From a virus: DNA of 43,504 bases. The stretch covers positions 1 to 43,504 of the IMG/VR virus record IMGVR_UViG_3300025112_000038; one strand, 5' to 3'. The notes beneath the pieces were generated by a model. It saw only the letters and a program-made list of their open reading frames with translations, was not told where the DNA came from and did not search any database. Shown piece after piece: positions 4,968-38,837 of the stretch; positions within the stretch are counted from its first letter, which is position 1, and each line of letters opens with the position of its first letter. The translations under genes were made by a program, and so were the position numbers.

Positions 4968-4973
4968 GATATT

Positions 4974-23193: not shown

Positions 23194-24100
23194 TTTCCTC
23201 CTTTCTATGCAATATATAATCTACGGCTTTAGTTGCTTTACTTGCAGCCCATACAACTAAGTTCTTATCATCTTTAATTGCTTTCATCCAATTCTTAATA
23301 TACGCAACTTGATTATCAAATTCCTTGTCAAATCCAGCTTCAGCACATAAGAATGAATTACCTATTTCAGCTACCAATTCCTCTCGGTGATAATTGTGAC
23401 TTGTATCCTTATCTGTTGTTCTGTTAAGCCTGTCTTTATGCTTAGTAGCATGAACAAACTCATGTGCTAATGTGTCTGCATATCCTGTCAATGCAGGAAA
23501 GTCACCTATCTTTGGCATATTGACATAGTCTTGGACAGGGCTGTAGTAAGCGGCAGAACCTCCGTGTTTTAACGTAGGACATTTAGGCATATCCATGAGC
23601 ATTTCAATTAGTTTCTCAGCAGCTTCATTTTTCTCAATAGATGGCTTTGCTTTAGGCTTTGGGAAATCTATATCTTCAATATCTTCTGAGTTAAATACAT
23701 TTGAATAACGTAGAAATGGTATGTGTTTGTCGTCACCTGTATCTTTATCTTTAATATCTAATATTTTCCAAAATACAATTTGTTCTGCTTTACTACCTTT
23801 CTTTAGTTTACCTCCACGTTGTTTAATCTGAAGAAACGTCATCCAATATGGTGTACTGTAGTTAGACAAACCAAGAAGTAACTGGTTCATGCCATTGTAC
23901 TTTTTGCCAGAATGAAAGTTCTGGTTGTTAAAAGATGTTTCAGAGTTCCACGGTTTTTTCCACGGGATTGTGCTATTTTCGAGAGCATTTACAATCTTGT
24001 CCGTGATGACTTGATGCAAGTCGAAATGCTTTGTCGTAGAGGTTAACTTCGTAGGTGATTCTGTCTCTGAGTTGTTGGTTTTCGTTTCTAAGCTCATCAT
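23129..24100 (-). CDS. ArdC-like antirestriction protein with zincin domain
   Basis: This 323-aa protein has the ArdC plan. The N-terminal ssDNA-binding domain spans ~25-135 (ITDKIVNALENSTIPWKKPW, then YNGMNQLLLG and YWMTFLQIKQRGGKLKKGSK). The C-terminal zincin domain has TLAHEFVHATKH (HEFVH 213-217) and REELVAEIG as the third-ligand helix. Plasmid ArdC protects incoming DNA against restriction. In a phage it could protect the injected genome or process a host protein. AAAGGAGA precedes ATG 24100. Its first 128 bases overlap the small upstream gene in another frame. Confidence 0.85.
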   Translation of the reverse strand: MMSLETKTNNSETESPTKLTSTTKHFDLHQVITDKIVNALENSTIPWKKPWNSETSFNNQNFHSGKKYNGMNQLLLGLSNYSTPYWMTFLQIKQRGGKLKKGSKAEQIVFWKILDIKDKDTGDDKHIPFLRYSNVFNSEDIEDIDFPKPKAKPSIEKNEAAEKLIEMLMDMPKCPTLKHGGSAAYYSPVQDYVNMPKIGDFPALTGYADTLAHEFVHATKHKDRLNRTTDKDTSHNYHREELVAEIGNSFLCAEAGFDKEFDNQVAYIKNWMKAIKDDKNLVVWAASKATKAVDYILHRKEENGKTIHKDDNDQTNKTTSTNS

Positions 24101-24167
24101 TCTCCTTTATATACTTGTTAATAGTTTCTGCTATTTCAACCACAGCTTGTTGACTTTGTTTGTTCAT
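23973..24167 (-). CDS. small coiled-coil protein overlapping ardC-like gene (64 aa)
   Basis: A helix with heptads (INKYIKENDELRNENQQLRD) followed by a His/Cys tail (SSHHGQDCKC). TAGGAGGAAG precedes its ATG, an ideal ribosome binding site, yet two-thirds of the gene lies inside the ArdC-like gene in a different frame. Both genes have good initiation signals, so I keep both. The function is unknown. Confidence 0.5.
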   Translation of the reverse strand: MNKQSQQAVVEIAETINKYIKENDELRNENQQLRDRITYEVNLYDKAFRLASSHHGQDCKCSRK

Positions 24168-24354
24168 ATCTTCCTCCTACATCAATAGTGGTTTCAGCAT
24201 ATTCTATGTCATACCATTCCCTGCCTATTAGATTACAATTAGCACATTCGAATGGATACGTTAGGCTATCTTGGTAATATTCTTCTTGACTATAAACTAA
24301 AACCTCACTTTTGCAATTAGGACATTTACCTTCATTAAATCTCATGCTTTTCAT
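24136..24354 (-). CDS. zinc-ribbon protein (72 aa)
   Basis: CPNCKSEVLVYSQEEY at residues 11-26 and FECANCNLIGREWYDIEY further on make a treble-type ribbon (CxxC-x~24-CxxC) of the sort seen in phage proteins annotated as restriction-alleviation (Lar)-like. The spacing and WYD-like ending support that comparison weakly. It overlaps the coiled-coil gene by 32 bases. If Lar-like, it would pair functionally with the ArdC-like protein. Confidence 0.55.
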   Translation of the reverse strand: MKSMRFNEGKCPNCKSEVLVYSQEEYYQDSLTYPFECANCNLIGREWYDIEYAETTIDVGGRYEQTKSTSCG

Positions 24355-24375
24355 GTTTATCTCCCAATAGATAAT

Positions 24376-24401
24376 AATTCTTTCTGTTAAGAAAAAGAAT
24401 T
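24376..24401. repeat. intergenic hairpin
   Basis: Perfect 8-bp inverted repeat AATTCTTT / AAAGAATT with a 10-base loop in the 52-base gap between two leftward genes. There is no following U tract on the minus strand; it is possibly an RNA processing or stability element. Confidence 0.4.
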
Positions 24402-24406
24402 TTAGC

Positions 24407-24808
24407 TTACTTGTTTTCTTTTTCTATTTTGTCTAACAATTCATTTGCTGTACCTTCAAATAGTATTTCTTTTGGTTTATCTGTTGTTACTTTAATCTTA
24501 ATTTGACCTTTTGGTGATTCTGAAATGATATAGTTATATTCTTCCCAACAATCTTTTGAACCAGCAGGATAACAATAAATTCCTCCAGCTTCTTCTTTAA
24601 AATGTTTAAACATAGAAGCAGCAAGGCAACCCATACCATTAAAAATAGTTCTATTTTCATCCATTCTGATTCCATTTACTATGCTTGCATCAACAAGCCA
24701 TTTAGCTAATTCGTAACCATGTCCATCTAAGTACCCATCAAATTGACGATACATAACTGTTAATTCTTTTTTTCCATCTTTGATTCTTGTTAATGAACGT
24801 GTTCCCAT
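24407..24808 (-). CDS. conserved phage hypothetical protein (MGTRSLT family, 133 aa)
   Basis: Begins MGTRSLTRIKDG and contains LTVMYRQFDGYLDGHGYEL, with a later C-W-Y rich stretch (CYPAGSKDCWEEYNYIIS). I recall this N-terminal pattern from an uncharacterised family of phage and bacterial proteins. It is soluble with no catalytic motif that I can name. Good TTAAAAGGAGA ribosome binding site. Confidence 0.65.
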   Translation of the reverse strand: MGTRSLTRIKDGKKELTVMYRQFDGYLDGHGYELAKWLVDASIVNGIRMDENRTIFNGMGCLAASMFKHFKEEAGGIYCYPAGSKDCWEEYNYIISESPKGQIKIKVTTDKPKEILFEGTANELLDKIEKENK

Positions 24809-24819
24809 ATTATCTCCTT

Positions 24820-24999
24820 TTAATAAGAATTATTTCTTTCTTCATTTTCCAATGCTTCTCTATCGGCATCTTCTTCTATAATATCCCATTGTTTACTTGT
24901 AAAGCCATCCATGTGTGTTATTGGTTGACCGCATACAGGACAAGATGATTCAGATGAACTGACGGGTTCACAGAAGTTACTACAGGTAAATTCACTCAT
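24820..24999 (-). CDS. small zinc-ribbon-like protein (59 aa)
   Basis: From ATG 24999 the protein reads SEFTCSNFCEPVSSSESSCP and contains CPVCGQPI, followed by an acidic helix (EEDADREALENEE). Four Cys in CxxxC and CxxC form a possible zinc site. I chose 24999, which abuts the upstream stop at 25001, over an in-frame ATG at 25068, which would run inside the neighbouring gene. Its ribosome binding site GAGG is about 12 bases upstream. Confidence 0.5.
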   Translation of the reverse strand: MSEFTCSNFCEPVSSSESSCPVCGQPITHMDGFTSKQWDIIEEDADREALENEERNNSY

Positions 25000-25000
25000 A

Positions 25001-25207
25001 TTAGTACCATTCCTCTTTATGCTCTGGTTCAATAGGTTCATCAACATCACATTGATTATAGAAGTCAAGTATCATTGGGTTAAACTGTGCTAATTTTGCA
25101 GACTGACACCGTTGGCATACAAGACATAACGGGATACCACGACCATCATATTCCCACCATGTTGACTGTTCTTCATGTTGACAATGTTGTAGTTCTTTGT
25201 TTATCAT
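25001..25207 (-). CDS. small Cys/His protein of phage type (68 aa)
   Basis: CQHEEQSTWWEYDGRGIPLC followed by LVCQRCQSAKLAQF. The combination of a DG-GIPLC turn and CxxC resembles an uncharacterised zinc-binding protein that I recall from Pseudomonas-type phages. It overlaps the next upstream gene by 4 bases. Its partner and role are unknown. Confidence 0.6.
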   Translation of the reverse strand: MINKELQHCQHEEQSTWWEYDGRGIPLCLVCQRCQSAKLAQFNPMILDFYNQCDVDEPIEPEHKEEWY

Positions 25208-25569
25208 TTGGTCTCCTTTATTGTTGTCATTAATTCCTTAACTACTTTTTCATGCATATCATTTGCTTGGTTGTCGTCATCTATGTTATCTATAGTCCAA
25301 TTTGAATTGAACTGTATTGGTTGTGAAACGTCTGCATCATAATATTTTTTATCTTTTAAATTAGCTTTAAATGCCATTGTTTCATAGTATCTTTTATATC
25401 CAATTTCATCATACTTACCTTCTTCTAATGGGTTTTCCATTAAACCTACTGTTGATACAACAATCTTTTTGTTTTTATATTCAATTAATGTGTTTCGGCG
25501 AAACTTGCATCTCATAGCACAAATGAAATGTCCTGCCCATCCTCTTTCTGTGCGTTTTGCTGGTCTCAT
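25204..25569 (-). CDS. conserved phage protein (RGWAGHF family, 121 aa)
   Basis: The N-terminus carries RGWAGHFICAMRCKFRRNTL and KIVVSTVGLM, a strongly conserved block in an uncharacterised phage protein family; the rest is acidic (IDNIDDDNQANDMHEK). It has no recognised catalytic site. It is the first gene after the terminator at 25708-25751, so it probably opens a new leftward transcription unit. AAAGGAAAAC precedes the ATG. Confidence 0.65.
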   Translation of the reverse strand: MRPAKRTERGWAGHFICAMRCKFRRNTLIEYKNKKIVVSTVGLMENPLEEGKYDEIGYKRYYETMAFKANLKDKKYYDADVSQPIQFNSNWTIDNIDDDNQANDMHEKVVKELMTTIKETK

Positions 25570-25658
25570 TTTTGTTTTCCTTTCGTAAATAAAATTTTGC
25601 AGACTGAATCCATGTGCCTCAACCCACTGTCTGGTTGTCTATTATCTTTGATTAGTTT

Positions 25659-25675
25659 GTGAACAATAGTGAACA
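25659..25675. promoter_or_regulatory. direct repeat pair, possible operator
   Basis: GTGAACA occurs twice, at 25659-25665 and 25669-25675: a 10-base period, one helical turn. It lies in the 188-base gap 25570-25757 upstream of the leftward gene ending at 25204. I see no clear -35/-10 pair, so the operator reading is tentative. Confidence 0.35.
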
Positions 25676-25707
25676 TATAAATTATTCTCTTTACAATGAA
25701 CTAAAAC

Positions 25708-25751
25708 AAAAAAAAGCTCTGATACCAGACATCCCTGTCCGATACCAGAGC
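25708..25751 (-). terminator. rho-independent terminator, leftward
   Basis: On the minus strand the sequence forms a 16-bp stem (all positions pair, a few as G-U) around the loop GGGA (hairpin 25716-25751) and runs into eight U (25708-25715). It closes the early leftward transcript carrying 27213 to 25758. It is the best terminator in the window. Confidence 0.88.
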
Positions 25752-25757
25752 AGATAT

Positions 25758-26123
25758 TTAAATGATGGTTTGTATTACTGAGAATATGCCAGAATCTTTA
25801 GCATACCAGTTAGCATTCCTTGCTTGTTCTATGATGTCGCCTTTGTCCACTTGGTTTTTACCCATCATTTTAACTCTTGTAAATGGTAAAGAAACTCTTG
25901 AGAAACTATCGTCTTTCATTTGACCTGTGCATTTAACCACTTCCCAATATGCGTCACGGTCAACGGTTTCCCATATCTTTTGAAGCTTTAGGTTTGTGAT
26001 TCTTCTAAGGTCTTTATCGTTGTATAAAACTGAGTCGTTACCATCAGCGTCTATCTCATTTACAAAGGTTGAATCGTCAGAAATGTCATTACCAGCTTCA
26101 TCATATGTTTTTACATCTTCCAT
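25758..26123 (-). CDS. hypothetical acidic protein (121 aa)
   Basis: An acidic N-terminus (DVKTYDEAGNDISDDSTFVN) is followed by a compact region (LKLQKIWETVDRDAYWEVVK; FTRVKMMGKNQVDKGDIIEQ). It has no Cys motif, signal or membrane span. AAAGGAGA precedes its ATG. Being the last gene before a strong terminator suggests high early expression. The family is not recognised. Confidence 0.6.
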   Translation of the reverse strand: MEDVKTYDEAGNDISDDSTFVNEIDADGNDSVLYNDKDLRRITNLKLQKIWETVDRDAYWEVVKCTGQMKDDSFSRVSLPFTRVKMMGKNQVDKGDIIEQARNANWYAKDSGIFSVIQTII

Positions 26124-26134
26124 AGTGTTCTCCT

Positions 26135-26503
26135 TTAAATATAGATTTTAGATAGGTTCTTAACGTCATTATATGTGTTGATTCTGTGAAAGACTTTGAT
26201 AGTTTGTTCTTCGTTGCCAACATACATTTCCATTTTGTTACAAACTATCTTGAATATTTCCTTATGGTTACTGTTCGCCTTACCTGTTCCTTTGTCGTAC
26301 TCGTAACCGTCTTCAACCATTAATTGCTTAATCCAACATAGGTGACCATCAACCGATTTATGCCTATGACGTTTATCTTCAAGCTGAAACACTGACATAT
26401 CTTCGGAGTAGTATGTTGACACTTGGTGGTCATCAAAGATGTCAAGACAACTGTTTCTATCAGGGTCATGCCATAACAGTAAACTATTTGTTTCCTTGAA
26501 CAT
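26135..26503 (-). CDS. hypothetical protein (122 aa)
   Basis: This is a soluble protein rich in His, Asp and aromatic residues (LLLWHDPDRNSCLDIFDDHQ; DKRHRHKSVDGHLCWIKQLM). No metal-site spacing convinces me. AAAGGAGA ribosome binding site. It overlaps the small upstream gene by 20 bases. Early leftward unit; possibly a host-takeover protein, by position only. Confidence 0.6.
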   Translation of the reverse strand: MFKETNSLLLWHDPDRNSCLDIFDDHQVSTYYSEDMSVFQLEDKRHRHKSVDGHLCWIKQLMVEDGYEYDKGTGKANSNHKEIFKIVCNKMEMYVGNEEQTIKVFHRINTYNDVKNLSKIYI

Positions 26504-26609
26504 CTGTTTCTCCTTTCTCTATTTGTTTGACTATGTTGTGAAGACTCTTTAGGTCTTCAATTAGGTCTAACCTACGTTGTTCCATGAACATACGAATAAC
26601 ATCAGTCAT
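26484..26609 (-). CDS. small helical protein (41 aa)
   Basis: The frame from ATG 26609 reads TDVIRMFMEQRRLDLIEDLK then SLHNIVKQIEKGE, an amphipathic helix. GGCAGGTG lies ~7 bases upstream. It fills the gap between two larger leftward genes and overlaps the downstream one by 20 bases, consistent with operon coupling. The function is unknown. Confidence 0.5.
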   Translation of the reverse strand: MTDVIRMFMEQRRLDLIEDLKSLHNIVKQIEKGETDVQGNK

Positions 26610-26647
26610 CTTTATCACCTGCCTTTCAGCCAACGTCTTTGGGGTTA

Positions 26648-26677
26648 AAAATACAATTTATAGTTAGATTGTATTTT
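26648..26677. repeat. AT-only hairpin between leftward genes
   Basis: Perfect 10-bp inverted repeat AAAATACAAT / ATTGTATTTT with a 10-base loop, 3 bases from the stop of the 26680-26835 gene. The stem has only two G-C pairs and no separate U tract follows on the minus strand. Confidence 0.45.
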
Positions 26678-26679
26678 GA

Positions 26680-26835
26680 TTAAACAGCACTTTCTATTAT
26701 TTCATCAAACTCGTAGTATTTACATATAGGTATGAAACCGTCATATATCTCACAATAGTTGTCTTTAGCTTCTTGTGTGCCAAGAGCTAAGTATTTGCAG
26801 TAACAACATTGACTGAATGGTTGCTTGTATAACAT
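26680..26835 (-). CDS. Cys-rich small protein (51 aa)
   Basis: MLYKQPFSQCCYCKYLALGT, then YCEIYDGFIPICKYYEF: Cys at 10, 11, 13, 28 and 38 suggest a metal site. I place the start at ATG 26835, which abuts the upstream stop and has GAGGT 6 bases before it; the longer frame to 26937 would overlap the neighbouring gene by 100 bases. Confidence 0.5.
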   Translation of the reverse strand: MLYKQPFSQCCYCKYLALGTQEAKDNYCEIYDGFIPICKYYEFDEIIESAV

Positions 26836-26836
26836 T

Positions 26837-27079
26837 TTATACCTCACTTTCTTTATCAAGATTTTCACAATAATTAGATTGTTTATCATAGCAAGTTTCA
26901 CACATACCAGAGATTGCATATTCGTTGTTACCTTCAAGTGTGAAAATATTAGTTCCTATGATGGCGTCTTTTTTACAATTAATGCAGATGTTAAGCGTAT
27001 GAGCCATTGTTAAACTCATGCCAAATGTTTTACGAGCAAAGTCATCCATTGATGCTTTAAAGCTGAATTTGTTTAGCAT
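26837..27079 (-). CDS. zinc-ribbon protein of common phage type (80 aa)
   Basis: FARKTFGMSLTMAHTLNICI with NCKKDA, then NEYAISGMCETCYDKQ: two CxxC pairs ~30 residues apart with the EY.ISG.CE.C pattern that I recall from many small phage proteins. It is probably a structural zinc ribbon in an early host-interaction protein. AAAGGAGAT ribosome binding site. Confidence 0.65.
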   Translation of the reverse strand: MLNKFSFKASMDDFARKTFGMSLTMAHTLNICINCKKDAIIGTNIFTLEGNNEYAISGMCETCYDKQSNYCENLDKESEV

Positions 27080-27099
27080 ATTATCTCCTTTAATGTAGG

Positions 27100-27213
27100 T
27101 TAGTTGTGTATCTCGTAATCAAGTTCATATATTAGTGCGTCAATCAGTACATCTAATGCCAAAGAACTGTCATGTTGTTGCATATTGATAAACCAATTAA
27201 ATTGCCAATTCAT
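27100..27213 (-). CDS. first leftward gene, small protein (37 aa)
   Basis: The frame from ATG 27213 (NWQFNWFINMQQHDSSLALD then VLIDALIYELDYE) has the strongest ribosome binding site in the region, AAAGGAGGTGATATAG. It is acidic with many aromatic residues. It is the gene nearest the control region on the left, so an immediate-early leftward product. The function is unknown. Confidence 0.55.
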   Translation of the reverse strand: MNWQFNWFINMQQHDSSLALDVLIDALIYELDYEIHN

Positions 27214-27481
27214 CTATATCACCTCCTTTCTTAAAAAATATATAATATTAATAATCATCTCCTGAGTGTAGAGTATTATCAGTGTGTTCTCACTATAAAG
27301 CTCATGTAAAACATCGATGTCGTTCCAATAAGTCAGGTGTTGAGCTATGAAGGAGTTGGAAATGAACGGTAGTGAATGACAGCGCTAATAAATTCATAGC
27401 GATAGATGAGCAGGATGTTTGGTTTGTGGATGAAGAGATATTATTATTATTATCGAAGTTGAAAGAACTATTCACTCCTAT

Positions 27482-27514
27482 ATGTACACTAAATACTTTA
27501 GTATGTGTGTACAT
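27482..27514. repeat. nested hairpin
   Basis: ATGTACAC (27482-27489) pairs perfectly with GTGTACAT (27507-27514), enclosing TAAA/TTTA. This 8-bp plus 4-bp nested structure lies in the non-coding control region. Confidence 0.5.
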
Positions 27515-27792
27515 TAGATGAAGTGGATGAAGATTGTTCCATTAACTTCTGGTATCTATTAGGAGAGTGAGTGCCTGTGATTGTTGCGGATGTTTGGTAA
27601 AACCTATGTTCTTGCTTGTCCGTGCCTAATACTATGCTGTTATTTAATATGCCCGTAGTTAAGCGTAAAGTACGCATTCGAAACTTGAATAGCTCACACT
27701 ATGCATTTGCTCTTGACCTTAGACGTGTGATGTGCGTGAGATGATAGAGGGGAGGGATTAGATTTTTGGGTGCAACATTGTGTTTCAATAAG

Positions 27793-27830
27793 GTGTATGA
27801 TTTTGTATACACTGTATGATAATTCATACA
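27793..27830. repeat. two adjacent hairpins with shared TGTATGA core
   Basis: GTGTAT/ATACAC (27793-27812) is followed directly by TGTATGA-TAAT-TCATACA (27813-27830). TGTATGAT also occurs as a direct repeat at 27794 and 27813. Tandem dyads with the same core look like a repressor operator pair or RNA hairpins. Confidence 0.5.
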
Positions 27831-28120
27831 CTAAATGGTTGGTGTCTCAACAAAAGGAAGCTCTTGACTCTCTGCGTATTTACGTACTCACGAGGGAACG
27901 TAAGCTCTTGATTTACTGTACGAAGAAGGGAGGGGTACGGGGGAGGAGGATTCTGTACTATATAAAACAACACACCCTCAGGATAGTAAAAACAAAAAGA
28001 CCCACTTTAACTAATTGATTCTAATAACATAACTTTAATTTGTAAGCATATACAGCGCCACCTCCAGACACTAAAAACAAAAAGCATCTTTTCTTCAGCA
28101 TTTTCAACACCTTGAGTATC

Positions 28121-28151
28121 TTGTCAATATAACACATAATTATGGTATAAT
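28121..28151 (+). promoter_or_regulatory. putative promoter with extended -10
   Basis: TTGTCA at 28121-28126, a 19-base spacer and TATAAT at 28146-28151 preceded by TGG (extended -10). The spacer is long, but the -10 is perfect. The transcript would start about 28158 and run directly into the GCAACA repeat array. Confidence 0.5.
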
Positions 28152-28217
28152 GTAAACTAATGTAACAAACCCGCAACATTTCTGCAACATTCCGCAACAT
28201 TTGTAACATCTGCAACA
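28152..28217. repeat. GCAACA iteron array
   Basis: G(C/T)AACA units start at 28162, 28173, 28184, 28194, 28203 and 28212, with a GTAAAC relative at 28152. Steps of 9-11 bases keep the units on roughly one face of the helix. The best units read GCAACATT. One isolated GCAACATT lies at 27772. This is consistent with a replication-initiator or repressor binding array. Confidence 0.65.
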
Positions 28218-28236
28218 AGCGTTGTTAAAAAAGGAG

Positions 28237-28373
28237 TTAGAACGAAAAGAACCTAATTATCATATAATTATAGGTGCGCTTAAAATGCGTTTAAGAAGCA
28301 TTTTAAGGTAGCTAATAGTATATATATACTACTATACTGTTTAGTAGTTATAAGCTATACACAATCGTTCTAA
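28237..28373. repeat. multi-hairpin element closed by a 9-bp inverted repeat
   Basis: TTAGAACGA (28237-28245) pairs perfectly with TCGTTCTAA (28365-28373). Inside lie CCT-AATTAT/ATAATT-AGG (28252-28274), CTTAAAATGC/GCATTTTAAG (28279-28288/28298-28307) and TAGCT/AGCTA (28309-28313/28353-28357). The last pair encloses the palindrome AGTATATATATACT (28317-28330) or, alternatively, ACTACTA/TAGTAGT (28328-28348). The region is very AT-rich. It may be an origin unwinding element or a structured RNA. Confidence 0.55.
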
Positions 28374-28391
28374 GGAAAAGCAAAAAAATGC

Positions 28392-28420
28392 TTGACATTT
28401 ATTATGCCACGTGGTATACT
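28392..28420 (+). promoter_or_regulatory. near-consensus sigma-70 promoter with embedded dyad
   Basis: TTGACA at 28392-28397, exactly 17 bases, then TATACT at 28415-28420. The spacer end contains the palindrome CCACGTGG (28407-28414), extended to ATGCCACGTGGTAT with one mismatched pair, so a regulator could block the -10 region. It is the best promoter in the window, driving the rightward gene set from 28452. Confidence 0.88.
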
Positions 28421-28451
28421 GTGCGCATAAATTGGAAAGGAGGTGAAATAA

Positions 28452-28649
28452 ATACCACAGGCTAAGAAAGGAAAGATAACAAAGATAGGCAGGAATCTAA
28501 AGAAACCCTCCTGCCAGAGATACACCATCTCCGAGAGATGGAAAGTCAACAAGAAGAGGAGAGAATGGCAAATAGCTTCAGAGTTGCCGAAATATAAAGG
28601 TATGACAAAATCGGAATATTTTAATAACTCTTTTACACAGGAGAACTAA
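28452..28649 (+). CDS. basic small protein with apparent AUA start codon (65 aa)
   Basis: An open frame begins right after an in-frame TAA (28449-28451) with ATA at 28452, continues PQAKKGKITKIGRNLKKPSC and ends at TAA 28647-28649. AAAGGAGGTG (28436-28445) is spaced ideally for that ATA. No in-frame ATG, GTG or TTG occurs until near the C-terminus. The protein is strongly basic (ERWKVNKKRREWQ), suggesting nucleic-acid binding. It is the first gene behind the strongest promoter. Alternatives: a base error or polymorphism in an ATG, or a dead gene. The intact 65-codon frame argues against decay. Confidence 0.55.
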   Translation: MPQAKKGKITKIGRNLKKPSCQRYTISERWKVNKKRREWQIASELPKYKGMTKSEYFNNSFTQEN

Positions 28650-28650
28650 T

Positions 28651-28911
28651 ATGGAAGTTAAGTATTGGAGGAGCTACGAGAAGAACACGCTTAAAGGATT
28701 TTTTTCAACTCAATTCGACAATGGTCTCATTGTCAAAGATATGACCTACCACATCAAGGGAGACAACAAATGGGTTGGCTTCCCGTCTAAATCCTACGAA
28801 CAAGACAAAGAAACCAAATGGACTAATATCTGTTACTTTCCAGATAAGACCAGAGGTAACAGTTTCCAAGACGCTATAATCCCACTTGTTGAAAAGGCTA
28901 TGAGTGAATAA
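28651..28911 (+). CDS. conserved small protein, KGFFS...GFPSKSY type (86 aa)
   Basis: LKGFFSTQFDNGLIVKDMTY, then NKWVGFPSKSYEQDKETKW, a final FPDK and FQDAIIP: a compact beta-rich domain that I recall from an uncharacterised family near phage and plasmid primase genes. It starts 2 bases after the AUA gene, behind CAGGAG. Possibly an ssDNA- or RNA-binding fold; not established. Confidence 0.65.
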   Translation: MEVKYWRSYEKNTLKGFFSTQFDNGLIVKDMTYHIKGDNKWVGFPSKSYEQDKETKWTNICYFPDKTRGNSFQDAIIPLVEKAMSE

Positions 28912-29164
28912 AGTAATAGCCTTGCTATTCTTTTTGTCTATGTCCTGTAATGCGTATGCTCAAGAATTTATTCGAGAGCATACGTACAGGGCATCAGATG
29001 ATGACTCTAAGAATGATTCAAGAAGCGCTGCATTAAAGCAAATGCAGATTGGTTTATTGTCAGAGATAGGAGTGTATATAGAATCAGAAATGCTGATGAA
29101 GTTTATGAGGAGGTTAAAACGAGATGAAAGTAGGGAGAATAATAAGGATATTCAGATTGTTTGA
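28904..29164 (+). CDS. exported protein with signal peptide (86 aa), GTG start
   Basis: MNKVIALLFFLSMSCNAYAQ is a signal peptide with likely cleavage after AYA. The mature N-terminus REHTYRASDDDSKNDSRSAA, continued by LKQMQIGLLSEIGVYIES, resembles the start of a bacterial envelope domain that I recall from much larger proteins; here it stops after ~25 further residues. It would act in the periplasm. The GTG start at 28904 overlaps the upstream stop. It may be a truncated host-derived gene. Confidence 0.6.
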   Translation: MNKVIALLFFLSMSCNAYAQEFIREHTYRASDDDSKNDSRSAALKQMQIGLLSEIGVYIESEMLMKFMRRLKRDESRENNKDIQIV

Positions 29165-29288
29165 CGAGACAGGGCTTAGAAAATTAGCAAAAGAAATTGG
29201 AATTTCAAGCGCAACATTGAGCCGCGTAGAGAATGGTAAATCTGTAGATGGTAAAACAATGATCAAGTTAATTAAATGGTTATTTTAA
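29124..29288 (+). CDS. XRE-family HTH regulator (54 aa)
   Basis: A minimal Cro-like protein: MKVGRIIRIFRLFDETGLRK, then LAKEIGISSATLSRVENGK is a textbook XRE helix-turn-helix, followed by TMIKLIKWL. AGGAGG lies upstream of ATG 29124. It lies inside the 3' part of the exported-protein gene by 41 bases. As a small regulator close to the control region, it is a candidate binder of the operator-like dyads at 27793-27830 or 28407-28414. Confidence 0.75.
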   Translation: MKVGRIIRIFRLFDETGLRKLAKEIGISSATLSRVENGKSVDGKTMIKLIKWLF

Positions 29289-29325
29289 ATGACTAACCGC
29301 CTAAATAATACCAGTGAACTCAACA

Positions 29326-29433
29326 ATGTTAATTTTAGCGGCATTATTTCTTACGATAACTATTCCTGTTCATATTTCATGGCATAGGGATTTAGAGAGG
29401 TGGCAGGAGGAAAGGGATAGGGAGAGATTATGA
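29326..29433 (+). CDS. single-span membrane microprotein (35 aa)
   Basis: MLILAALFLTITIPVHISW forms one membrane helix, followed by a highly charged helix (HRDLERWQEERDRERL). Its TGA overlaps the next ATG (ATGA at 29430), the junction typical here. No clear ribosome binding site precedes it. A competing frame from ATG 29289, right after the XRE stop, is less protein-like. Confidence 0.42.
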   Translation: MLILAALFLTITIPVHISWHRDLERWQEERDRERL

Positions 29434-29759
29434 AACTTAGTGAAATGAGTGGTGATGATTTAATAAAACTAAGAGAAAAATGTGTAAATAAGATAAATAC
29501 TAACAAAGATAAAAGAATTGAAGAGCTTGAAGAATTATTAGAGGCTGCAGACCTTCGTAATGCTGAAATGGTGGTTGATTTAGAAAAACTTGAGAAGGCT
29601 CTTAGGGAGATTTATAAACAATCAAATGGACACATGAAAAATAAAATGGCAGTTTTTCAAAATACTAAATTTTATAATGAACTTACTGAAACGACAATAA
29701 AATCCATCAAAGAACAATGCGAATCAGCTATACCAAGTTTAAAGGAGGAAATAAAGTGA
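29430..29759 (+). CDS. coiled-coil protein, paralogue of the 20013-20258 product (109 aa)
   Basis: An N-terminal coiled coil (KDKRIEELEELLEAADLRNA) is followed by LEKALREIYKQS and IKSIKEQCESAIPSLKEE. These blocks recur in the 81-aa protein at 20013-20258. It has no signal or membrane segment. It is coupled upstream by ATGA and downstream through an overlapping GTGA. The function is unknown. Confidence 0.6.
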   Translation: MKLSEMSGDDLIKLREKCVNKINTNKDKRIEELEELLEAADLRNAEMVVDLEKLEKALREIYKQSNGHMKNKMAVFQNTKFYNELTETTIKSIKEQCESAIPSLKEEIK

Positions 29760-29902
29760 ATAAAGTTTATATGCTTGTAATTCCTGAAAAATTGCATTAT
29801 AAGTTAAAGATGATTGCGGCAGGGGAAAAGACAACTATGAGAGATTTAATTACAAGGTCGATAGAAAAGTTTGTAGGAGGCAAAGTTAATGGGAACAGGT
29901 GA
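29756..29902 (+). CDS. ribbon-helix-helix-like protein (48 aa), GTG start
   Basis: A GTG at 29756 behind AAAGGAGG gives MNKVYMLVIPEKLHYKLKMI, then AAGEKTTMRDLITRSIEKFV: a beta strand followed by two helices, the Arc/MetJ ribbon-helix-helix layout. It probably dimerises and binds DNA. I prefer GTG 29756 to the ATG at 29717, which lacks a ribosome binding site. Confidence 0.65.
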   Translation: MNKVYMLVIPEKLHYKLKMIAAGEKTTMRDLITRSIEKFVGGKVNGNR

Positions 29903-30104
29903 CTATAATCTGTTTAGCACAGGGAATAAAGTTTTAAAGAATAGGGAGGGTTATGATAGAACTTTTGGAGAACGTACTTCCATACTTTGCATTAACTGTG
30001 GCGTTAGTGGTGCTGACCGTTTTCATTACCATAGTGGCAACTATTACTGCACGCATTGTGCAAGACGTATTGGAATCCAAATAGAGGAGCGCCATGTACC
30101 TTAA
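29889..30104 (+). CDS. zinc-ribbon protein (71 aa)
   Basis: The ATG at 29889 follows GTAGGAGG. The C-terminal half has LCINCGVSGADRFHYHSGNY then YCTHCARRIG: a CxxC pair, a His/Tyr loop and a second CxxC pair, a typical zinc ribbon. A different frame in the same DNA (29953-30084) encodes a hydrophobic peptide with its own ribosome binding site. The function is unknown. Confidence 0.55.
   Translation: MGTGDYNLFSTGNKVLKNREGYDRTFGERTSILCINCGVSGADRFHYHSGNYYCTHCARRIGIQIEERHVP
29953..30084 (+). CDS. possible overprinted membrane peptide (43 aa)
   Basis: In the +1 frame within the zinc-ribbon gene, ATG 29953 preceded by GGGAGGGTT starts MIELLENVLPYFALTVALVV, continues LTVFITIVATITARIVQDVL and ends at TAG 30082-30084. 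This is a clean membrane helix with a charged amphipathic tail, like phage holins or toxin-like peptides. Either this or the zinc-ribbon frame, or both, could be real. Confidence 0.4.
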   Translation: MIELLENVLPYFALTVALVVLTVFITIVATITARIVQDVLESK

Positions 30105-30408
30105 AACATTAGTAATTTTATTCGGTCTTTTATTAGTACCAGTTGAGCATCCTCCTCCAGAGGAGATACTGACTCAAAGTCAGATAGCAAAACAATGCTT
30201 ACATTTAAGAGAGGCATATCAGATAGGTAGAGAACAATATATAGATTTCCTTATTGTTAGAAAGCAGGGAGAACCAGACAGGTATAGACTATATGACCAG
30301 AAAGCTCTTAATAAGTTTCTGTCTACTGTCATGGCAACACATGACTATGTTCAATGCCTTGAAGGTGGTATTATTCAATTTGAAGTAAGAAGAAAGGATG
30401 CTATTTAA
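30094..30408 (+). CDS. exported or membrane-anchored hypothetical protein (104 aa)
   Basis: The N-terminus MYLKTLVILFGLLLVPVEHP is a signal or anchor. The remainder (AKQCLHLREAYQIGREQYID; LNKFLSTVMATHDYVQCLEG) is a soluble alpha/beta part with two Cys that could pair in the periplasm. It shares one base with the next gene (TAATG). It lies just upstream of the endolysin, so a lysis-associated role is possible. Confidence 0.55.
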   Translation: MYLKTLVILFGLLLVPVEHPPPEEILTQSQIAKQCLHLREAYQIGREQYIDFLIVRKQGEPDRYRLYDQKALNKFLSTVMATHDYVQCLEGGIIQFEVRRKDAI

Positions 30409-30719
30409 TGCTGACAAGAAATAGTTTTATTAAGAGTTGTATGGTAGCGGTAGCTGCTATGTTCCTGCCTAAGATTCAAATTAAAAATGTTAGCGACAGA
30501 GCGAAAACTAACTGCGACTTAACTCACGGTAGAGTTGGATTTGCTGAAGAAATACTTAATGCTCCATTAAGAAAACCAGACTATATGCCTTTACGCTTTA
30601 GACAATATGAACAGATTAAAGAAGCATTTGGTCAACCAAGTGAAGCAACAATGGATGCTTTTAAAAAGATAAATGAAAGATGGAATAAAATAGTAGACGC
30701 TGAAAGAAAAGGTAAATAA
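30408..30719 (+). CDS. exported hypothetical protein (103 aa)
   Basis: MLTRNSFIKSCMVAVAAMFL is a basic-hydrophobic signal, and the mature part is basic and helical (LRFRQYEQIKEAFGQPSEAT). The stop overlaps the endolysin start (TAATG), so the two are translationally coupled. It may assist endolysin or be an outer spanin-like partner, although a convincing lipobox is missing. Confidence 0.5.
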   Translation: MLTRNSFIKSCMVAVAAMFLPKIQIKNVSDRAKTNCDLTHGRVGFAEEILNAPLRKPDYMPLRFRQYEQIKEAFGQPSEATMDAFKKINERWNKIVDAERKGK

Positions 30720-31078
30720 TGGGTGACTTAACAAAACATTTCTCAGCACATGAGTTTGCTTGCCGTTGCGGATGTGGTAAGAAAGTGATTGACTCACAGT
30801 TCCTACAGCTCTTGGAAGATTCAAGAGAAGGAACTTTTGTGCCTTTTGTCATCACTTCAGGAGTACGGTGTATGTCACACAATAAGGCTGTTGGTGGAAA
30901 GGAACACTCAGCACACATCTCAGGCAAGGCTGTTGACATAGAGTGTAAGGATAGCATGAGAAGGTTTAATCTGTTAAGAGCCTTGATAAGAGACTTTGAC
31001 CGTATTGGAATTGCAAAAGATTTTATCCATGTGGATAATGATATAACAAAACCAAAAGAAGTTACTTGGCTTTACTAA
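30719..31078 (+). CDS. endolysin, M15-type zinc peptidase
   Basis: This 119-aa single-domain lysin has HFSAHEFACRCGCG at the N-terminus and the peptidase M15_3 signature. Residues include TSGVRC (46-51), SAHISGKAVDI (64-74) with H66 and D73, and FIHVD with H104 as third zinc ligand. Such enzymes cut the peptide cross-links of peptidoglycan. There is no signal peptide, so release would need a holin (candidate at 5722-6003). Spanin-like genes follow at 31516-32314. Confidence 0.85.
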   Translation: MGDLTKHFSAHEFACRCGCGKKVIDSQFLQLLEDSREGTFVPFVITSGVRCMSHNKAVGGKEHSAHISGKAVDIECKDSMRRFNLLRALIRDFDRIGIAKDFIHVDNDITKPKEVTWLY

Positions 31079-31164
31079 TGGCACATCAAAATAGAAAAGG
31101 GAGGAGACGACTTGGAAGTAAAAAAAGAAGAGAAATGCGAATCAGACGCAGAAAAAAGAAGTAG
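31078..31164 (+). CDS. possible Arg/Lys-rich micropeptide (28 aa)
   Basis: The ATG at 31078 shares a base with the endolysin TAA (TAATG). The frame gives MAHQNRKGRRRLGSKKRREM then RIRRRKKK, over half Arg or Lys. It overlaps the next gene's start, and the purine-rich ribosome binding site of that gene partly dictates its composition. Coupled re-initiation is plausible; function, if any, unknown. Confidence 0.35.
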   Translation: MAHQNRKGRRRLGSKKRREMRIRRRKKK

Positions 31165-31519
31165 GTTGACTACTGAACAAATCAAGGCAGATGCGGAAAA
31201 AGATTATAGCATAAGAAACGAAACTAAAGAACAGCATGATGAACGGTTAGGATTAAAGACAGGTGATGTTTCTATTGATATACATTGTATAGCCTTTATT
31301 GTAAAAGTTATCAGGATGTATCACGAACAATGGTTACATTCTGTTCATGGGATTGCTGTATTGCCACCAGCGCAAACTAAAGCCTGTGTTGTCTCAGAGC
31401 AAAGAGTAATGGATATGCTTGTGAAGTTCTTTGAAGAAAACAAAGGTAAGCCTTTCTCTGACTTTACAGTTAAGACTCCGAAAAAAGAAGGAACTTGTGA
31501 TAACATGGTGGTACAATGA
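31112..31519 (+). CDS. hypothetical protein (135 aa), TTG start
   Basis: A TTG at 31112 follows GGGAGGAG at good distance. The protein has a charged N-terminus (EVKKEEKCESDAEKRSRLTT), a central SIDIHCIAFIVKVIRMYHEQ and a C-terminal helix (VVSEQRVMDMLVKFFEENKG). It has no signal peptide. The stop overlaps the next ATG (ATGA). The family is not recognised. Confidence 0.55.
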   Translation: MEVKKEEKCESDAEKRSRLTTEQIKADAEKDYSIRNETKEQHDERLGLKTGDVSIDIHCIAFIVKVIRMYHEQWLHSVHGIAVLPPAQTKACVVSEQRVMDMLVKFFEENKGKPFSDFTVKTPKKEGTCDNMVVQ

Positions 31520-31863
31520 ACATTAAGTATTGGGGGTTGGTAGTATGTCTGATAATTCTATTTATTATTGGTTTAAAAAATTCTTTCCTGAAAAAACGGA
31601 TAGCTCATCTTCTGGCAAAGGAGGAGAAGGAAGAGACAAGGAAAAAGAAGGAAGTGTTGACGGTAGCACTAAGCCCAATAAAAGAAGAAATAAAAAAGTC
31701 AAAACAGGAAAAGCACATAACAAAAAAAGAATATCGTCTGTTGCAACTTCAAGAAGAAGAAATAAAAGAAAGACTAAAGGAAGCAAGCGAGTTGTACGCA
31801 GAAGCGGTAAAAGAGGAAACTAAATTAGCAGGGAGTATAGCTTATGCAAAATCGAGAAAATAA
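31516..31863 (+). CDS. inner-membrane spanin-like protein (115 aa)
   Basis: The N-terminal membrane span YWGLVVCLIILFIIGL is followed by a long Lys/Glu coiled coil (KKEYRLLQLQEEEIKERLKE). That topology is typical of Rz-type i-spanins, which bridge to the outer membrane at lysis, and the endolysin lies ~440 bases upstream. A frame at 31530-31823 in the same DNA is a low-complexity shadow. No o-spanin lipoprotein is evident. Confidence 0.55.
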   Translation: MNIKYWGLVVCLIILFIIGLKNSFLKKRIAHLLAKEEKEETRKKKEVLTVALSPIKEEIKKSKQEKHITKKEYRLLQLQEEEIKERLKEASELYAEAVKEETKLAGSIAYAKSRK

Positions 31864-32314
31864 AGATTTTTGGTTTAATATTTTTTGGTCGTTCATTATT
31901 GTAACGATAATTATTTGTGTACTAAAAACATCAGTATTCGCAGAAGAAAAAGAATATCCGAAGATGATGGAAAACGGGAATGTAGAAATGGATGCAAAGT
32001 CATTTAATAAGTTTATGAACGACCTACAGGCTTATGACCAGTTAAGAAAAGTAGATGCTGAAAAGAATATCTACATAGATAACTTAAAGGGTCAGGCAAA
32101 CAAACTTCACAAGATGAACCAGAATAACGAAGAGATTATTAGGAATAACGAGAAGATAGTTAAGCGCCAAGAGAAGTTTATAGAGCTTCAACACAAAGAC
32201 ATAAACAGATTAATTGAAGAGAAAGAAAAAGTAGGTGAAGGTGGAATAGTGGATGATGTAAAGAAACAAGCTGCTATTCCTATGTTCATCTGGATATTAT
32301 TGAGCTTGATATAG
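31844..32314 (+). CDS. membrane protein with long coiled coil and C-terminal span (156 aa)
   Basis: A first hydrophobic segment (FWFNIFWSFIIVTIIICVLK, ~9-28) ends in VFAEE, a possible signal cleavage site. It is followed by ~90 residues of coiled coil (NNEEIIRNNEKIVKRQEKFI) and a terminal hydrophobic helix (PMFIWILLSLI). Signal or anchor plus coil plus tail anchor resembles a unimolecular spanin or a lysis-cassette membrane protein. Confidence 0.52.
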   Translation: MQNRENKDFWFNIFWSFIIVTIIICVLKTSVFAEEKEYPKMMENGNVEMDAKSFNKFMNDLQAYDQLRKVDAEKNIYIDNLKGQANKLHKMNQNNEEIIRNNEKIVKRQEKFIELQHKDINRLIEEKEKVGEGGIVDDVKKQAAIPMFIWILLSLI

Positions 32315-32322
32315 GAGGAACT

Positions 32323-32391
32323 ATGTTTAAGAAAAAAAAGAAAAAGAAGAACACTAAGAAGTCAGGAAGCGGAGGACAGTATGGCTCATAA
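32323..32391 (+). CDS. polylysine microprotein (22 aa)
   Basis: The ATG at 32323 has TAGGAGGA upstream. The product is MFKKKKKKKNTKKSGSGGQY plus GS, with nine Lys in the first 13 residues. Its end overlaps the next gene's start (ATG 32381) by 11 bases. The strong initiation signal suggests that it is translated. It may bind nucleic acid or mainly serve to couple translation of the next gene. Confidence 0.42.
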   Translation: MFKKKKKKKNTKKSGSGGQYGS

Positions 32392-32539
32392 TACTAAATC
32401 TAAAAAGCTACAATACAACCTTACGGAACACTTCAAGAAACATTCTCAGTCACACAACAGAGTAATGCGTAGAGAAATAGTTAAAGGCAAATCTGCTGAT
32501 GATGCTCATATAGAGGCAAGGAAAAAAGTTAAAGAATGA
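32381..32539 (+). CDS. small basic protein before terminase (52 aa)
   Basis: MAHNTKSKKLQYNLTEHFKK, then HSQSHNRVMRREIVKGKSAD with DAHIEARKKVKE: basic and helical, with GGAGGA before the ATG. It overlaps the terminase start by 4 bases (ATGA at 32536). Its position directly before the large terminase raises the possibility of a packaging accessory role, but it is too short for a typical small terminase. Confidence 0.55.
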   Translation: MAHNTKSKKLQYNLTEHFKKHSQSHNRVMRREIVKGKSADDAHIEARKKVKE

Positions 32540-34137
32540 ATCCAGACACTATTGACGTAGATGTATTAGATTCAAAAGAAAGAGAACAGCTTGAGCAACA
32601 ACTAACTCAGTATATGCATGAGTTAGATGCTGAAGAAGATTTTATAAAAGAAGAAAACAAATATGAGCATTTTGTACCTTCTGATGGTACAGTGACTCCA
32701 GCAGGGTTAGCTTTGCTACAGAAGTATCTCCAACCAGAAGACATACCTCAATCATTTGATTCACAGATAGATGCTGTTAAAGCTCTTGAGAACTACAACA
32801 TACTTGGTGTCCTTGGTGCTACACAATCTGGTAAAACTAACTGTTGTGCTATTATCGGATATTGCTTAGCTACAGGCGACCCTCCTCCATCCATGAAAGA
32901 TATCTTCCCGAAGAAACTATTGCCAACTAAATTTCCAGTTAAAGGCAGAGTGGTTGGCGTAGATAACCAGCAACTCCATGCAGCTGTTATCAGCGAATGG
33001 AAAAAGTTTGCTCCAAAAAAGTATTTAAAGAACGGTAAATGGGAAGACAGTTTTAATGCTGAAAAAAAGATACTTAGGCTTTACAGATATAACAAACTTC
33101 TTATAGCTGAAATTCAGTTTAATACTAATGAACAAAACGTAGACTCATTTCAAGGGATACAGTTACACTTTGTTATTTATGATGAAGAACCTAAAGAAAA
33201 GATTAGGAAGGAAAACCTTGCTCGTTTTACAACTTCCGATAGAGTTATAGAGATATTCGGATTTACTCCTACACATGGTATCTCATGGAGTAGCGAGATA
33301 TTCTTTAATGAACAGACAAGTAAAAACGTAAAGATGATTAAATTAGCTTCTATAACAAACAAGAAAGCTAATCTTAAAACATTAGATGAAATATGTTCTC
33401 AAGAGACAGATTATAATAAACTCAAAATGCGTTTACTTGGAGACTTTGTTTCTCTTTCTGGATTTGTTTATTCTAATTTATTCAGTGAAAAGGTTCACGT
33501 AATTAAACCATTTGAAATTAATCAGGAAGACTTTATAGTATACAGAGGGCTTGACCCTCATATGACTAAGCCTACTGTAGCTGTAGAAGTAGCTGTAGAT
33601 AGGGAGGGTTTTAAATATGTTGTGGGAACGTACAAAAGTAATCATGGAGACGACACAGAAATCATTAAAGCAGAATTGGCTAAAAGAGCTATGGAAAGAA
33701 ATTACAGACTTGGGTGGACAAATTGTGACAAGTCTGCTGATAGCACTATACGTATTATTGGTGATTATAATGCTTATGTATTACTTGGTCGTGGTAAAAA
33801 CGCTATACCCGCTTTGTTCAAAAGTGAAAAGTTTGTTGGGAGTAAAATAGCAGGAGTAGATTTAATAAGACAGAATCTTAAAGTTGATGATAGAATTAAC
33901 TTGCCAAGACTTGTTTTTTTTGATATACCAGAGAATAAAGAAATTATCCATTCTATGAAGACTTTAGAACGAGATACATTTGCTAACGAGGACACTAAAG
34001 TTAAAGACGATATAAAAGAAGGTAGACATGATGCTCATGCAGCATTACGTTATGCACATCAGAGAGTAATGAATTGGATGCCTTTAAACCAAATAATACC
34101 AGAACCAGACGAGATTAGTGATAACATAGGATATTAG
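32536..34137 (+). CDS. terL: terminase large subunit
   Basis: The 533-aa packaging motor has Walker A GATQSGKT at 94-101, Walker B HFVIYDEEP with D216-E217 and a coupling-type SITNKKANLK region. The C-terminal RNase H-like nuclease has YRGLDPH (D340) and GRHDAHAALRYAHQRV near the end. It cuts concatemers and drives DNA into the prohead. It is followed 9 bases later by the portal gene. No small subunit gene stands next to it; the HTH protein at 19238-19702 is a candidate. Confidence 0.92.
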   Translation: MNPDTIDVDVLDSKEREQLEQQLTQYMHELDAEEDFIKEENKYEHFVPSDGTVTPAGLALLQKYLQPEDIPQSFDSQIDAVKALENYNILGVLGATQSGKTNCCAIIGYCLATGDPPPSMKDIFPKKLLPTKFPVKGRVVGVDNQQLHAAVISEWKKFAPKKYLKNGKWEDSFNAEKKILRLYRYNKLLIAEIQFNTNEQNVDSFQGIQLHFVIYDEEPKEKIRKENLARFTTSDRVIEIFGFTPTHGISWSSEIFFNEQTSKNVKMIKLASITNKKANLKTLDEICSQETDYNKLKMRLLGDFVSLSGFVYSNLFSEKVHVIKPFEINQEDFIVYRGLDPHMTKPTVAVEVAVDREGFKYVVGTYKSNHGDDTEIIKAELAKRAMERNYRLGWTNCDKSADSTIRIIGDYNAYVLLGRGKNAIPALFKSEKFVGSKIAGVDLIRQNLKVDDRINLPRLVFFDIPENKEIIHSMKTLERDTFANEDTKVKDDIKEGRHDAHAALRYAHQRVMNWMPLNQIIPEPDEISDNIGY

Positions 34138-34146
34138 GAGGACACC

Positions 34147-35913
34147 ATGCCAATAGACGACTTCATAGTGACAGCTAAACGGTGGAAACATGAAGCACAG
34201 GAATTAAGGAGAGAATATGACGACCAATGGAGCAAAAACATTAGAAATATTAGAGGAGTGTTTGACGCAGGAGAAGTTAGCAAATCAAAAGTCAGAGGGA
34301 GGTCAAAGTTATTCTATAGGAAAATTTGGGCTATCTCTTGGAGGATTCTCGCTTCATTCTACCAGATATTCCTCAGAGACCCTGATAACTTTAAAATTGT
34401 CGGGAGGGATGCAGACAAAGACAATGTACGTTCCAAGATTCTCCACTTCATAGTGAAATGGCGTTATGACATGATGATGCGTGTTGACAGTTTGTTTATT
34501 CAATTCATGTGGGCTTTTCAAGATATTATAAATCTTGGATTTTGTGTTGGTAAATTCAGATGGGTGTTGAACGAACATGAAGATAAGCCAGAGTTTATTC
34601 TCTATCCACCCGAACAGGTTTACCACGATATGACCACAGCTATCAAAGAGAAGAAGAAATATATTATGTTTGAGAACTGGTCAACTAAGGATGAACTCAT
34701 GCAATTAGGTTATGAAGAATCTCTTATAGATGACCTTGAACCAATGACTCCTGAAACAAACTTAGTAAGGCAGACAAGGTTTCAGAATGAGAAAGACCCG
34801 TTACAGAATCCACAGGAGAACGAGTATCCTCAAGCTGGAAAGTTTACAGGAGCAGATAAGAACGAAATAGTAAAACCAGAGGATAGATATGTGTGGTATG
34901 AAGTATTCTATAAAGAAGATGGCAAATGCTTCTTTGCTTCGTATTCAAATGAAAAGATAATGCGAGAACCAGAGGAATCTGTGTATGGGAGGCGTTATCC
35001 AGTAGTGTTAGGTCAATGTCTCACTTTAGCGCACAAGGCTATGGGAGAAGGGTTTCCCGAACCACTTGAAGGTGTTCAGGAATCTATGAACGCTCATCTC
35101 AACCAGAGGAAGGATAATGTCTCCCTTGCATTAAACGGAAGAACTATTGTCTCAAGGTTTGCTAATGTAGACTTACAATCTTTAACACGGTCAAGGGCTG
35201 GTGGAGTTACGTTAGCAGATGATGTAGCAGGAGTAGTTGACAGACCTTTTAATAATGTTACACAAACAGCATATGCTGAAGCTGCTGCTGATGATGTTAT
35301 GATGCAGGAAATGTCAGGGGTAACACCCTCAAAGGAAGGTAGAGGAGAGGAAACTAAAGCCACAGTGGCGCAGATAAACTTAGCAGAGTCCAATGCGAAG
35401 ATAGATTTATTTGCAGCTATGGTAAAAGAGACGTTTCTTATGGACTTCTTCTCTACTTTAGCGAATCTTATTCAACAGTTTGAGACTAACGAAACAATAC
35501 TAAGAGTTGCTAATGAAAACTTTAGAGACGTAAATCCAACAGGAATAGATATGTTTGATTTAGGGAATGAAGTTGACTTAGAACTTAATGTTGGGTTAGG
35601 TGCTGTTGGAAGACAAATGGAAATACAGCAAGCCATGTTAGCTATGGATAGAGCCAATATGTCTAATCAAGCTATGGCTGGTTTATTACAGTCTGGTGCT
35701 GTACCTCAACAGGATGTACGTATGATAGATACAACTAAGTTTATGGAAGAGATATTGCCTAAACTTGGATTTAAAGATGTACAGAACTTTTTCTTTGCCG
35801 TAGCACCGCCTCCTCCTCAACAAGAGGCAGGTGGACTTAATCCTGCCCTTGCTGGTGCAGGTCAACCAAATATAGGATTAGAGGGTGGAAGACAAGCAGG
35901 GCAACTCCAATAA
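34147..35913 (+). CDS. portal protein
   Basis: This 588-aa protein directly follows terL and has portal features. The N-terminal helices (RRWKHEAQELRREYDDQWSK-type region) are followed by a beta-rich wing (FILYPPEQVYHDMTTAIKEK). A central segment reads LGQCLTLAHKAMGEGFPEPL, then EGVQESMNAHLNQRKDN. A long helical crown ends in a Pro/Gln-rich tail (APPPPQQEAGG). It forms the dodecameric ring through which DNA enters. Ribosome binding site TAGGAGGA. The next gene starts inside its 3' end. Confidence 0.85.
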   Translation: MPIDDFIVTAKRWKHEAQELRREYDDQWSKNIRNIRGVFDAGEVSKSKVRGRSKLFYRKIWAISWRILASFYQIFLRDPDNFKIVGRDADKDNVRSKILHFIVKWRYDMMMRVDSLFIQFMWAFQDIINLGFCVGKFRWVLNEHEDKPEFILYPPEQVYHDMTTAIKEKKKYIMFENWSTKDELMQLGYEESLIDDLEPMTPETNLVRQTRFQNEKDPLQNPQENEYPQAGKFTGADKNEIVKPEDRYVWYEVFYKEDGKCFFASYSNEKIMREPEESVYGRRYPVVLGQCLTLAHKAMGEGFPEPLEGVQESMNAHLNQRKDNVSLALNGRTIVSRFANVDLQSLTRSRAGGVTLADDVAGVVDRPFNNVTQTAYAEAAADDVMMQEMSGVTPSKEGRGEETKATVAQINLAESNAKIDLFAAMVKETFLMDFFSTLANLIQQFETNETILRVANENFRDVNPTGIDMFDLGNEVDLELNVGLGAVGRQMEIQQAMLAMDRANMSNQAMAGLLQSGAVPQQDVRMIDTTKFMEEILPKLGFKDVQNFFFAVAPPPPQQEAGGLNPALAGAGQPNIGLEGGRQAGQLQ

Positions 35914-36208
35914 ATCACCAGACCAAGAGTTCTTACAACGAAGGGCTGGTAGAATAGAAGACCTTGATAGGCTTCAACACATGGGAGAGTTTAAGTCTCT
36001 CAAGTGGTATTTTGAAATGGTAGCTGAAAAAGCCATCATGGAATTAGTTACAGTTAAAAACTTAACTATGAAACAAGAAGAAAGGTTAAAAGCAAAGATA
36101 GAAATATGCAAGTTTGAATTTGCAAACATAGGTTCATGGTTAAAGAATGAAGATGACGCAGCAAGAGAAATGTTTGAAGATTTAGAAGAAATTAAAAATT
36201 TAACTTGA
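35885..36208 (+). CDS. hypothetical helical protein between portal and scaffold (107 aa), GTG start
   Basis: A GTG at 35885 inside the portal 3' end starts EDKQGNSNKSPDQEFLQRRA. The rest is helical (RIEDLDRLQHMGEFKSLKWY; KQEERLKAKIEICKFEFANI) and acidic at the end. It overlaps the portal gene by 29 bases. The position suggests a head-assembly accessory role. Its stop overlaps a -35-like TTGACA. Confidence 0.55.
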   Translation: MEDKQGNSNKSPDQEFLQRRAGRIEDLDRLQHMGEFKSLKWYFEMVAEKAIMELVTVKNLTMKQEERLKAKIEICKFEFANIGSWLKNEDDAAREMFEDLEEIKNLT

Positions 36209-36232
36209 CAATATGTATACAGTCGGTAGAAT
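36205..36232 (+). promoter_or_regulatory. putative promoter for scaffold and capsid genes
   Basis: A perfect TTGACA at 36205-36210, a 16-base spacer and TAGAAT (5 of 6) at 36227-36232. A 6-bp hairpin (TCCTGA/TCAGGA, 36248-36266) lies in the implied leader before the scaffold ribosome binding site. It would boost expression of scaffold, capsid and the 38272-38754 gene. Confidence 0.6.
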
Positions 36233-36365
36233 AACTTTTAATCGGTATCCTGAACCGTTATCAGGAACATCAAGCGAAACACTTGAAAAACTATTGGAGG
36301 TTTTATGCCCAAAAAGAAAGAAGCAGCGCCAACGGAAGTCTCTTCCGAAAAAGAGGCAGAAGTAG
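36213..36365 (+). CDS. possible small ORF upstream of scaffold (50 aa)
   Basis: The frame from ATG 36213 (MYTVGRITFNRYPEPLSGTS, then SETLEKLLEVL) ends in a basic tail that overlaps the scaffold gene by 61 bases. No ribosome binding site precedes it, and the promoter at 36205-36232 would start transcripts downstream of its ATG. The N-terminal part does look protein-like. Confidence 0.22.
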   Translation: MYTVGRITFNRYPEPLSGTSSETLEKLLEVLCPKRKKQRQRKSLPKKRQK

Positions 36366-37258: not shown

Positions 37259-37285
37259 TCTTCCGATAAAGGGAGGAATTAGACA

Positions 37286-38248: not shown

Positions 38249-38271
38249 TAAACTTTTTTTAAGGAGATACA

Positions 38272-38754: not shown

Positions 38755-38774
38755 CTGGTTGACAGTCCAGTATA

Positions 38775-38826: not shown

Positions 38827-38837
38827 AAGGAGATTAT

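Follow-up and report, generated by a model that had tools for sequence, protein, structure and literature searches.

A probable AUA-started gene behind an extended Shine-Dalgarno sequence

The window, the whole 43,504-nucleotide stretch of viral DNA analysed here, carries a reading frame, ORF1, which is probably a real gene for a small basic phage protein; it lies first in a rightward operon and would be translated with AUA as its start codon. The phage is uncultured and podovirus-like, its portal being similar to those of SU10 and P22. The features of the site are as follows:

28392-28420, plus strand: sigma-70-type promoter, TTGACA-17 nt-TATACT with TG before the -10, a consensus match only (11/12)
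28436-28445, plus strand: extended Shine-Dalgarno (SD) sequence AAAGGAGGTG, second strongest among 60 gene starts
28452-28454, plus strand: ATA, proposed start codon, 8 nt past GGAGG and abutting an in-frame TAA
28452-28649, plus strand: ORF1, 65 codons, basic protein (pI about 10.3) with distant likeness to two ATG-started phage proteins
28651-28911, plus strand: gene 2, 86 residues, perhaps SpoVG-like (Pfam SpoVG below gathering score), conserved in the related contig L023

An in-frame TAA at 28449-28451 stands immediately 5' of the ATA at 28452, and from there 65 codons are open up to a TAA stop at 28647-28649. The initial annotation had described an SD 8 bases before this ATA, an intact and basic frame, a stop abutting the ATA and an N-terminus devoid of ATG, GTG or TTG, all of which can be read directly from the sequence, the earliest in-frame standard starts within ORF1 being a TTG at codon 45 and then an ATG at codon 51. 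Given that these are the only ones, there is no plausible standard-start version of the ORF1 protein; starting at either codon, most of the protein would be lost. Two upstream candidates were discarded: the in-frame GTG at 28443 overlaps the SD and reads GTG-AAA-TAA, and the TTG at 28432 reads TTG GAA AGG AGG TGA. A search for an upstream ATG on the predicted transcript found none. Another ATA, at 28448 (4 nt from GGAGG), opens a frame that closes after five codons. There was no sign of an altered genetic code, and the window is without tRNA genes. Analysis of the ORF1 leader revealed nothing unusual in its RNA structure (z about -1.0 and -1.8). ORF1 thus combines a near-cognate start, in the absence of any usable standard start, with an extended SD at fitting spacing, two features of genes of the ccpN and cvfC1 type. 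That it is a real gene with AUA as its only plausible start appears fairly well supported.

From 28392 the sequence reads TTGACA, 17 nt, TATACT and next GTGCGCATAAATTGGAAAGGAGGTGAAATAAATA, with the transcript start predicted at about 28427. In a comparison across the whole window the hexamer score of this promoter was equalled at 25178 and 36205, and the 28392 promoter was the only one of the three tied sites to combine a 17-nt spacer with TG. It was therefore fair to call ORF1 the first gene behind the strongest promoter of the window, as had been claimed; window-wide, the number of promoter-like matches is not above chance.

Strength of the SD and chance expectation

The 60 genes of the window, compiled by hand from the list of open reading frames, start with ATG (52), TTG (4), GTG (3) and ATA (1). 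Ranking their SD sequences by pairing energy placed ORF1 second (-22.1 kcal/mol), behind the gene at 27213 on the minus strand (-23.2 kcal/mol) and ahead of a third at -18.2 kcal/mol. AAAGGAGGTG occurs twice in the window, against an expected 0.09, and its second copy provides a natural comparison site:

27220-27229, minus strand: second copy of AAAGGAGGTG, with ATG 27213 at the same 8-nt spacing
27213-27100, minus strand: acidic ORF of 37 codons, ranked first in SD strength, opening the divergent leftward operon

The ribosome binding site cassette of the 27213 gene, GGAGGTGATATAGATG, also precedes unrelated genes in contigs L023 and L024.

To the ORF1 pattern we applied a simulation of 300 genomes with the trinucleotide make-up of the window, counting strong SDs without a standard start at 3-12 nt, with ATA at 5-9 nt and at least 60 open codons. 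The pattern did not occur with the full AAAGGAGGTG in any of the 300 simulated genomes, and with AGGAGGT it occurred 0.003 times per genome. Across the terminase clade, gathered from viral contigs, a standard start with an open frame follows 26 of 34 strong SDs; in only two of the remaining 8, the window site and a site in L023, does a near-cognate codon lead into a long open frame.

ORF1 and gene 2 as coding sequences

Comparison of ORF1 with P0003 (77 residues) of MW202512, the Manatee Spring podovirus, gave a score of 75 (shuffles 25.8 +/- 4.7, 0 of 20,000 as high), and comparison with P0002 (56 residues) of the clade relatives L008 and L017 gave 67 (shuffles 29.4 +/- 5.4, 2 of 20,000 as high); these statistics are per pair and carry no correction for the search by which the pairs were picked. 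Both are distant homologues rich in lysine and arginine, both genes start with ATG, and all three proteins have K[IL]GRN, a Y and N..RR in common. Read from the ATA, ORF1 carries GRN at residues 13-15, compared with 14-16 in P0003, so that its N-terminal length is about that of the Manatee Spring protein. A database-wide tblastn search with ORF1 yielded no significant match (phage-wide E-value about 4), and PHROGs and Pfam searches assigned it to no accepted family. The structure model is of low confidence (pLDDT 69, pTM 0.40) and contains one 18-residue helix; nucleic-acid binding would be a guess at the function of the protein.

The codon-usage score of ORF1 was -0.06 bits per codon, compared with 0.30 for long genes; since the conserved gene 2 itself scored just 0.01, codon usage is not decisive for ORF1. 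At the junction, TAATATG, the stop of ORF1 is separated by one base from the ATG of gene 2, whose SD (28639-28643) lies inside the last codons of ORF1, an arrangement suggesting that gene 2 is probably translationally coupled to ORF1. Gene 2 shares 45% identity with its homologue in L023, and the two matched Pfam SpoVG with E-values of 1e-4 and 5e-5, both below the gathering score; its structure model is poor (pLDDT 53), and it is perhaps a phage SpoVG-like protein. With its likeness to two ATG-started phage proteins and a stop 1 nt before the next ATG, the ORF1 frame looks genuine.

Relatives of the site

Searches of viral contigs, phages, plasmids and bacterial genomes for relatives of ORF1 returned a near-identical contig, the only other carrier found, and the two distant proteins; a terminase search of bacterial genomes for the host gave no match. 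In the comparison of related loci for ATG or ATA at this site, as called for by the initial annotation, no relative with ATG was found, and ATA was seen only in the near-identical contig. With no ATG at the site in any relative found, three histories may be considered: loss of an ATG, an AUA start of long standing, or a junction made by recombination.

In L023 (43.5 kb) the gene preceding the gene 2 homologue encodes a helix-turn-helix protein and not ORF1; its homologue in the window lies at 19238-19702. The surroundings of the SD nevertheless find an aligning counterpart at the syntenic position in L023 (score 39 versus 23.9 +/- 3.4, with 0.08% of shuffles as high, the SD being held fixed in the shuffles), and the similarity ends downstream of the SD stretch. 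The L023 stretch sits inside this different gene (4954-5484), which has a good SD of its own before ATG 4954; AAAGGAGGTG falls at codons 10-13, codes for KKKGGV and is followed by no ATG. An in-frame ATA lies 4 nt past it, a possible second, internal start of the helix-turn-helix protein. The usual strong leader of the clade, AAAGGAGGTGATATAGATG, is found at 27229 (minus strand) in the window and at 3175 (minus strand) in L023, and a nearly identical one at 1197 in L024.

Two further features of the window are:

20381-20282, minus strand: conserved leader hairpin GUAGUUGGUGGGUGU ... CAUCCACCAGCUAC, present also in L023 (4854-4932), L009 (235-316) and L024 (799-875)
23129-24100, minus strand: ArdC-type anti-restriction protein with a zincin-like metallopeptidase domain

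In the window, L023 and L009 the hairpin ends a short way upstream of an SD and ATG; in L024 it has the opposite orientation. An Rfam search with it gave no match, and it may act as RNA, in a leader, or be an inverted repeat of the DNA. In contigs L013 and L014, homologues of the right end of the window are followed by homologues of its left end (window ends 1 and 43504), indicating that the window probably represents an almost entire genome with an arbitrary cut point.

Alternative explanations for the ATA

A consensus base error or decay had been put forward as the dull alternative. An error, in which the true base at 28454 is G, is very improbable: IMG/VR contig 3300002484_000061, from a differently numbered data set and covering 24053-43297 of the window (19.2 kb), differs from it by 6 bases and has 7 Ns, all of them away from the site; it keeps the identical ATA, which makes an error private to one assembly unlikely. 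The phage is present in one further data set, where its contig starts at 29671. Decay stays under consideration, as a gene weakened in the population by a single G-to-A change of an ancestral ATG, its weak start tolerated and not selected. AAAGGAGGTGATATAGATG and AAAGGAGGTGAAATAAATA differ by three bases, one of them the start, and ATG-to-ATA changes do occur (rpoS, PMC12864459; citZ, PMC13009471). No relative with ATG at the site was found, however, and frame, SD and promoter are intact, although the two contigs differ too little to reveal decay; we regard this history as rather unlikely. A recombination junction, at which an SD leader became fused to a gene body lacking its own start, would leave the frame perhaps barely translated and the site without purpose as a start. 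The alignment of the leader within a different L023 gene at the same synteny, with no ATG after it and the similarity ending downstream, is what such an event could produce, but ORF1 has its own promoter directly upstream, the spacing from SD to AUA is ideal, and the N-terminal length counted from the AUA fits the Manatee Spring homologue, so that we hold a junction to be improbable. A drifted start, a recombination junction and an error jointly take up about one third of the probability.

The remaining readings give the AUA a role of its own. IF3 is established as the controlling factor at AUU-type starts in E. coli, and infC of Staphylococcus aureus starts with AUA (PMC13009471), from which one might picture an infC-like switch tying ORF1 output to host IF3. 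Any near-cognate start responds to IF3, so that a switch does not follow from the codon by itself; ORF1, without a Pfam match, is not IF3, in contrast to the autoregulated infC, and we give such a switch hardly any credence. It is also decidedly doubtful that the leader before gene 2 keeps, throughout the lineage, an extended SD without AUG, the weak start setting the first gene of the operon to a fixed low, or an IF3-dependent, dose. This reading draws on the AUA in the window and on the L023 AUA, which lies 4 nt from the SD and in the helix-turn-helix frame.

Proposed translation from AUA and its precedents

At AUA the initiator tRNA meets a third-position mismatch and is mostly rejected, IF3 being the usual discriminator. 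Under the preferred reading, translation of ORF1 from AUA, the promoter and the 10-base SD would load the start of the rightward operon, at its 5' end, with many 30S subunits. We infer that the long SD would retain the 30S subunit so that the near-cognate AUA accepts fMet-tRNA at a fraction of the AUG rate; strong recruitment would then be offset by a weak start codon, resulting in low output, and the weak start may be either selected or just tolerated. Phage T4 gene 26 also uses a near-cognate start; there it is a second start internal to the gene, and AUU instead of AUA.

In S. aureus, extended SDs precede the non-AUG starts of infC (AUA), ccpN (AUA) and cvfC1 (AUU). Initiation there was demonstrated with ribosome profiling and reporters, and other species share the starts of ccpN and cvfC1 (PMC13009471). 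Reporters of ccpN, citZ (AUA) and cvfC1 (AUU) reached about 10% of AUG, and that of ccpN up to 30% in rich medium (PMC13009471). ORF1 resembles infC, ccpN and cvfC1 in its AUA/AUU-type start behind an extended SD, and cvfC1 also in being a small protein (61 residues in cvfC1) encoded first in its operon; unlike ccpN and cvfC1, whose starts were measured and are conserved between species, ORF1 is known from sequence, and no divergent homologue sharing its start was found. A single-base change to ATA, with the product reduced but present, is the origin of the start in an E. coli O104:H4 rpoS isolate, in which RpoS was still made, lowered by up to 5-fold (PMC12864459), and in citZ, whose AUA start is reported for the NCTC 8325 lineage (PMC13009471); the ancestral ATG is known in those cases, whereas for ORF1 it is inferred. 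Translation of ORF1 from AUA has against it the level at AUA in E. coli, up to about 1% of AUG (Hecht et al., as quoted in PMC12864459), together with the weak codon-usage score and the distance of the homologues.

By analogy with these genes, ORF1 protein output is probably low at AUA, a behaviour for which a few bacterial genes provide known cases; in a host that reads extended SDs well, modest production would be likely. The proposal of the initial annotation that AUA may cap expression is plausible through the direct S. aureus precedent (PMC13009471). Neither IF3 sensing nor selection of AUA found support here, no divergent homologue with this start site having turned up. A near-cognate start behind an extended SD is of a known kind, of which ORF1 is a new example. 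Gene callers usually consider only ATG, GTG and TTG, so that genes such as ORF1 are left unannotated, and a phage case with an almost perfect SD would extend the recent finding that extended SDs enable the use of AUA and AUU.
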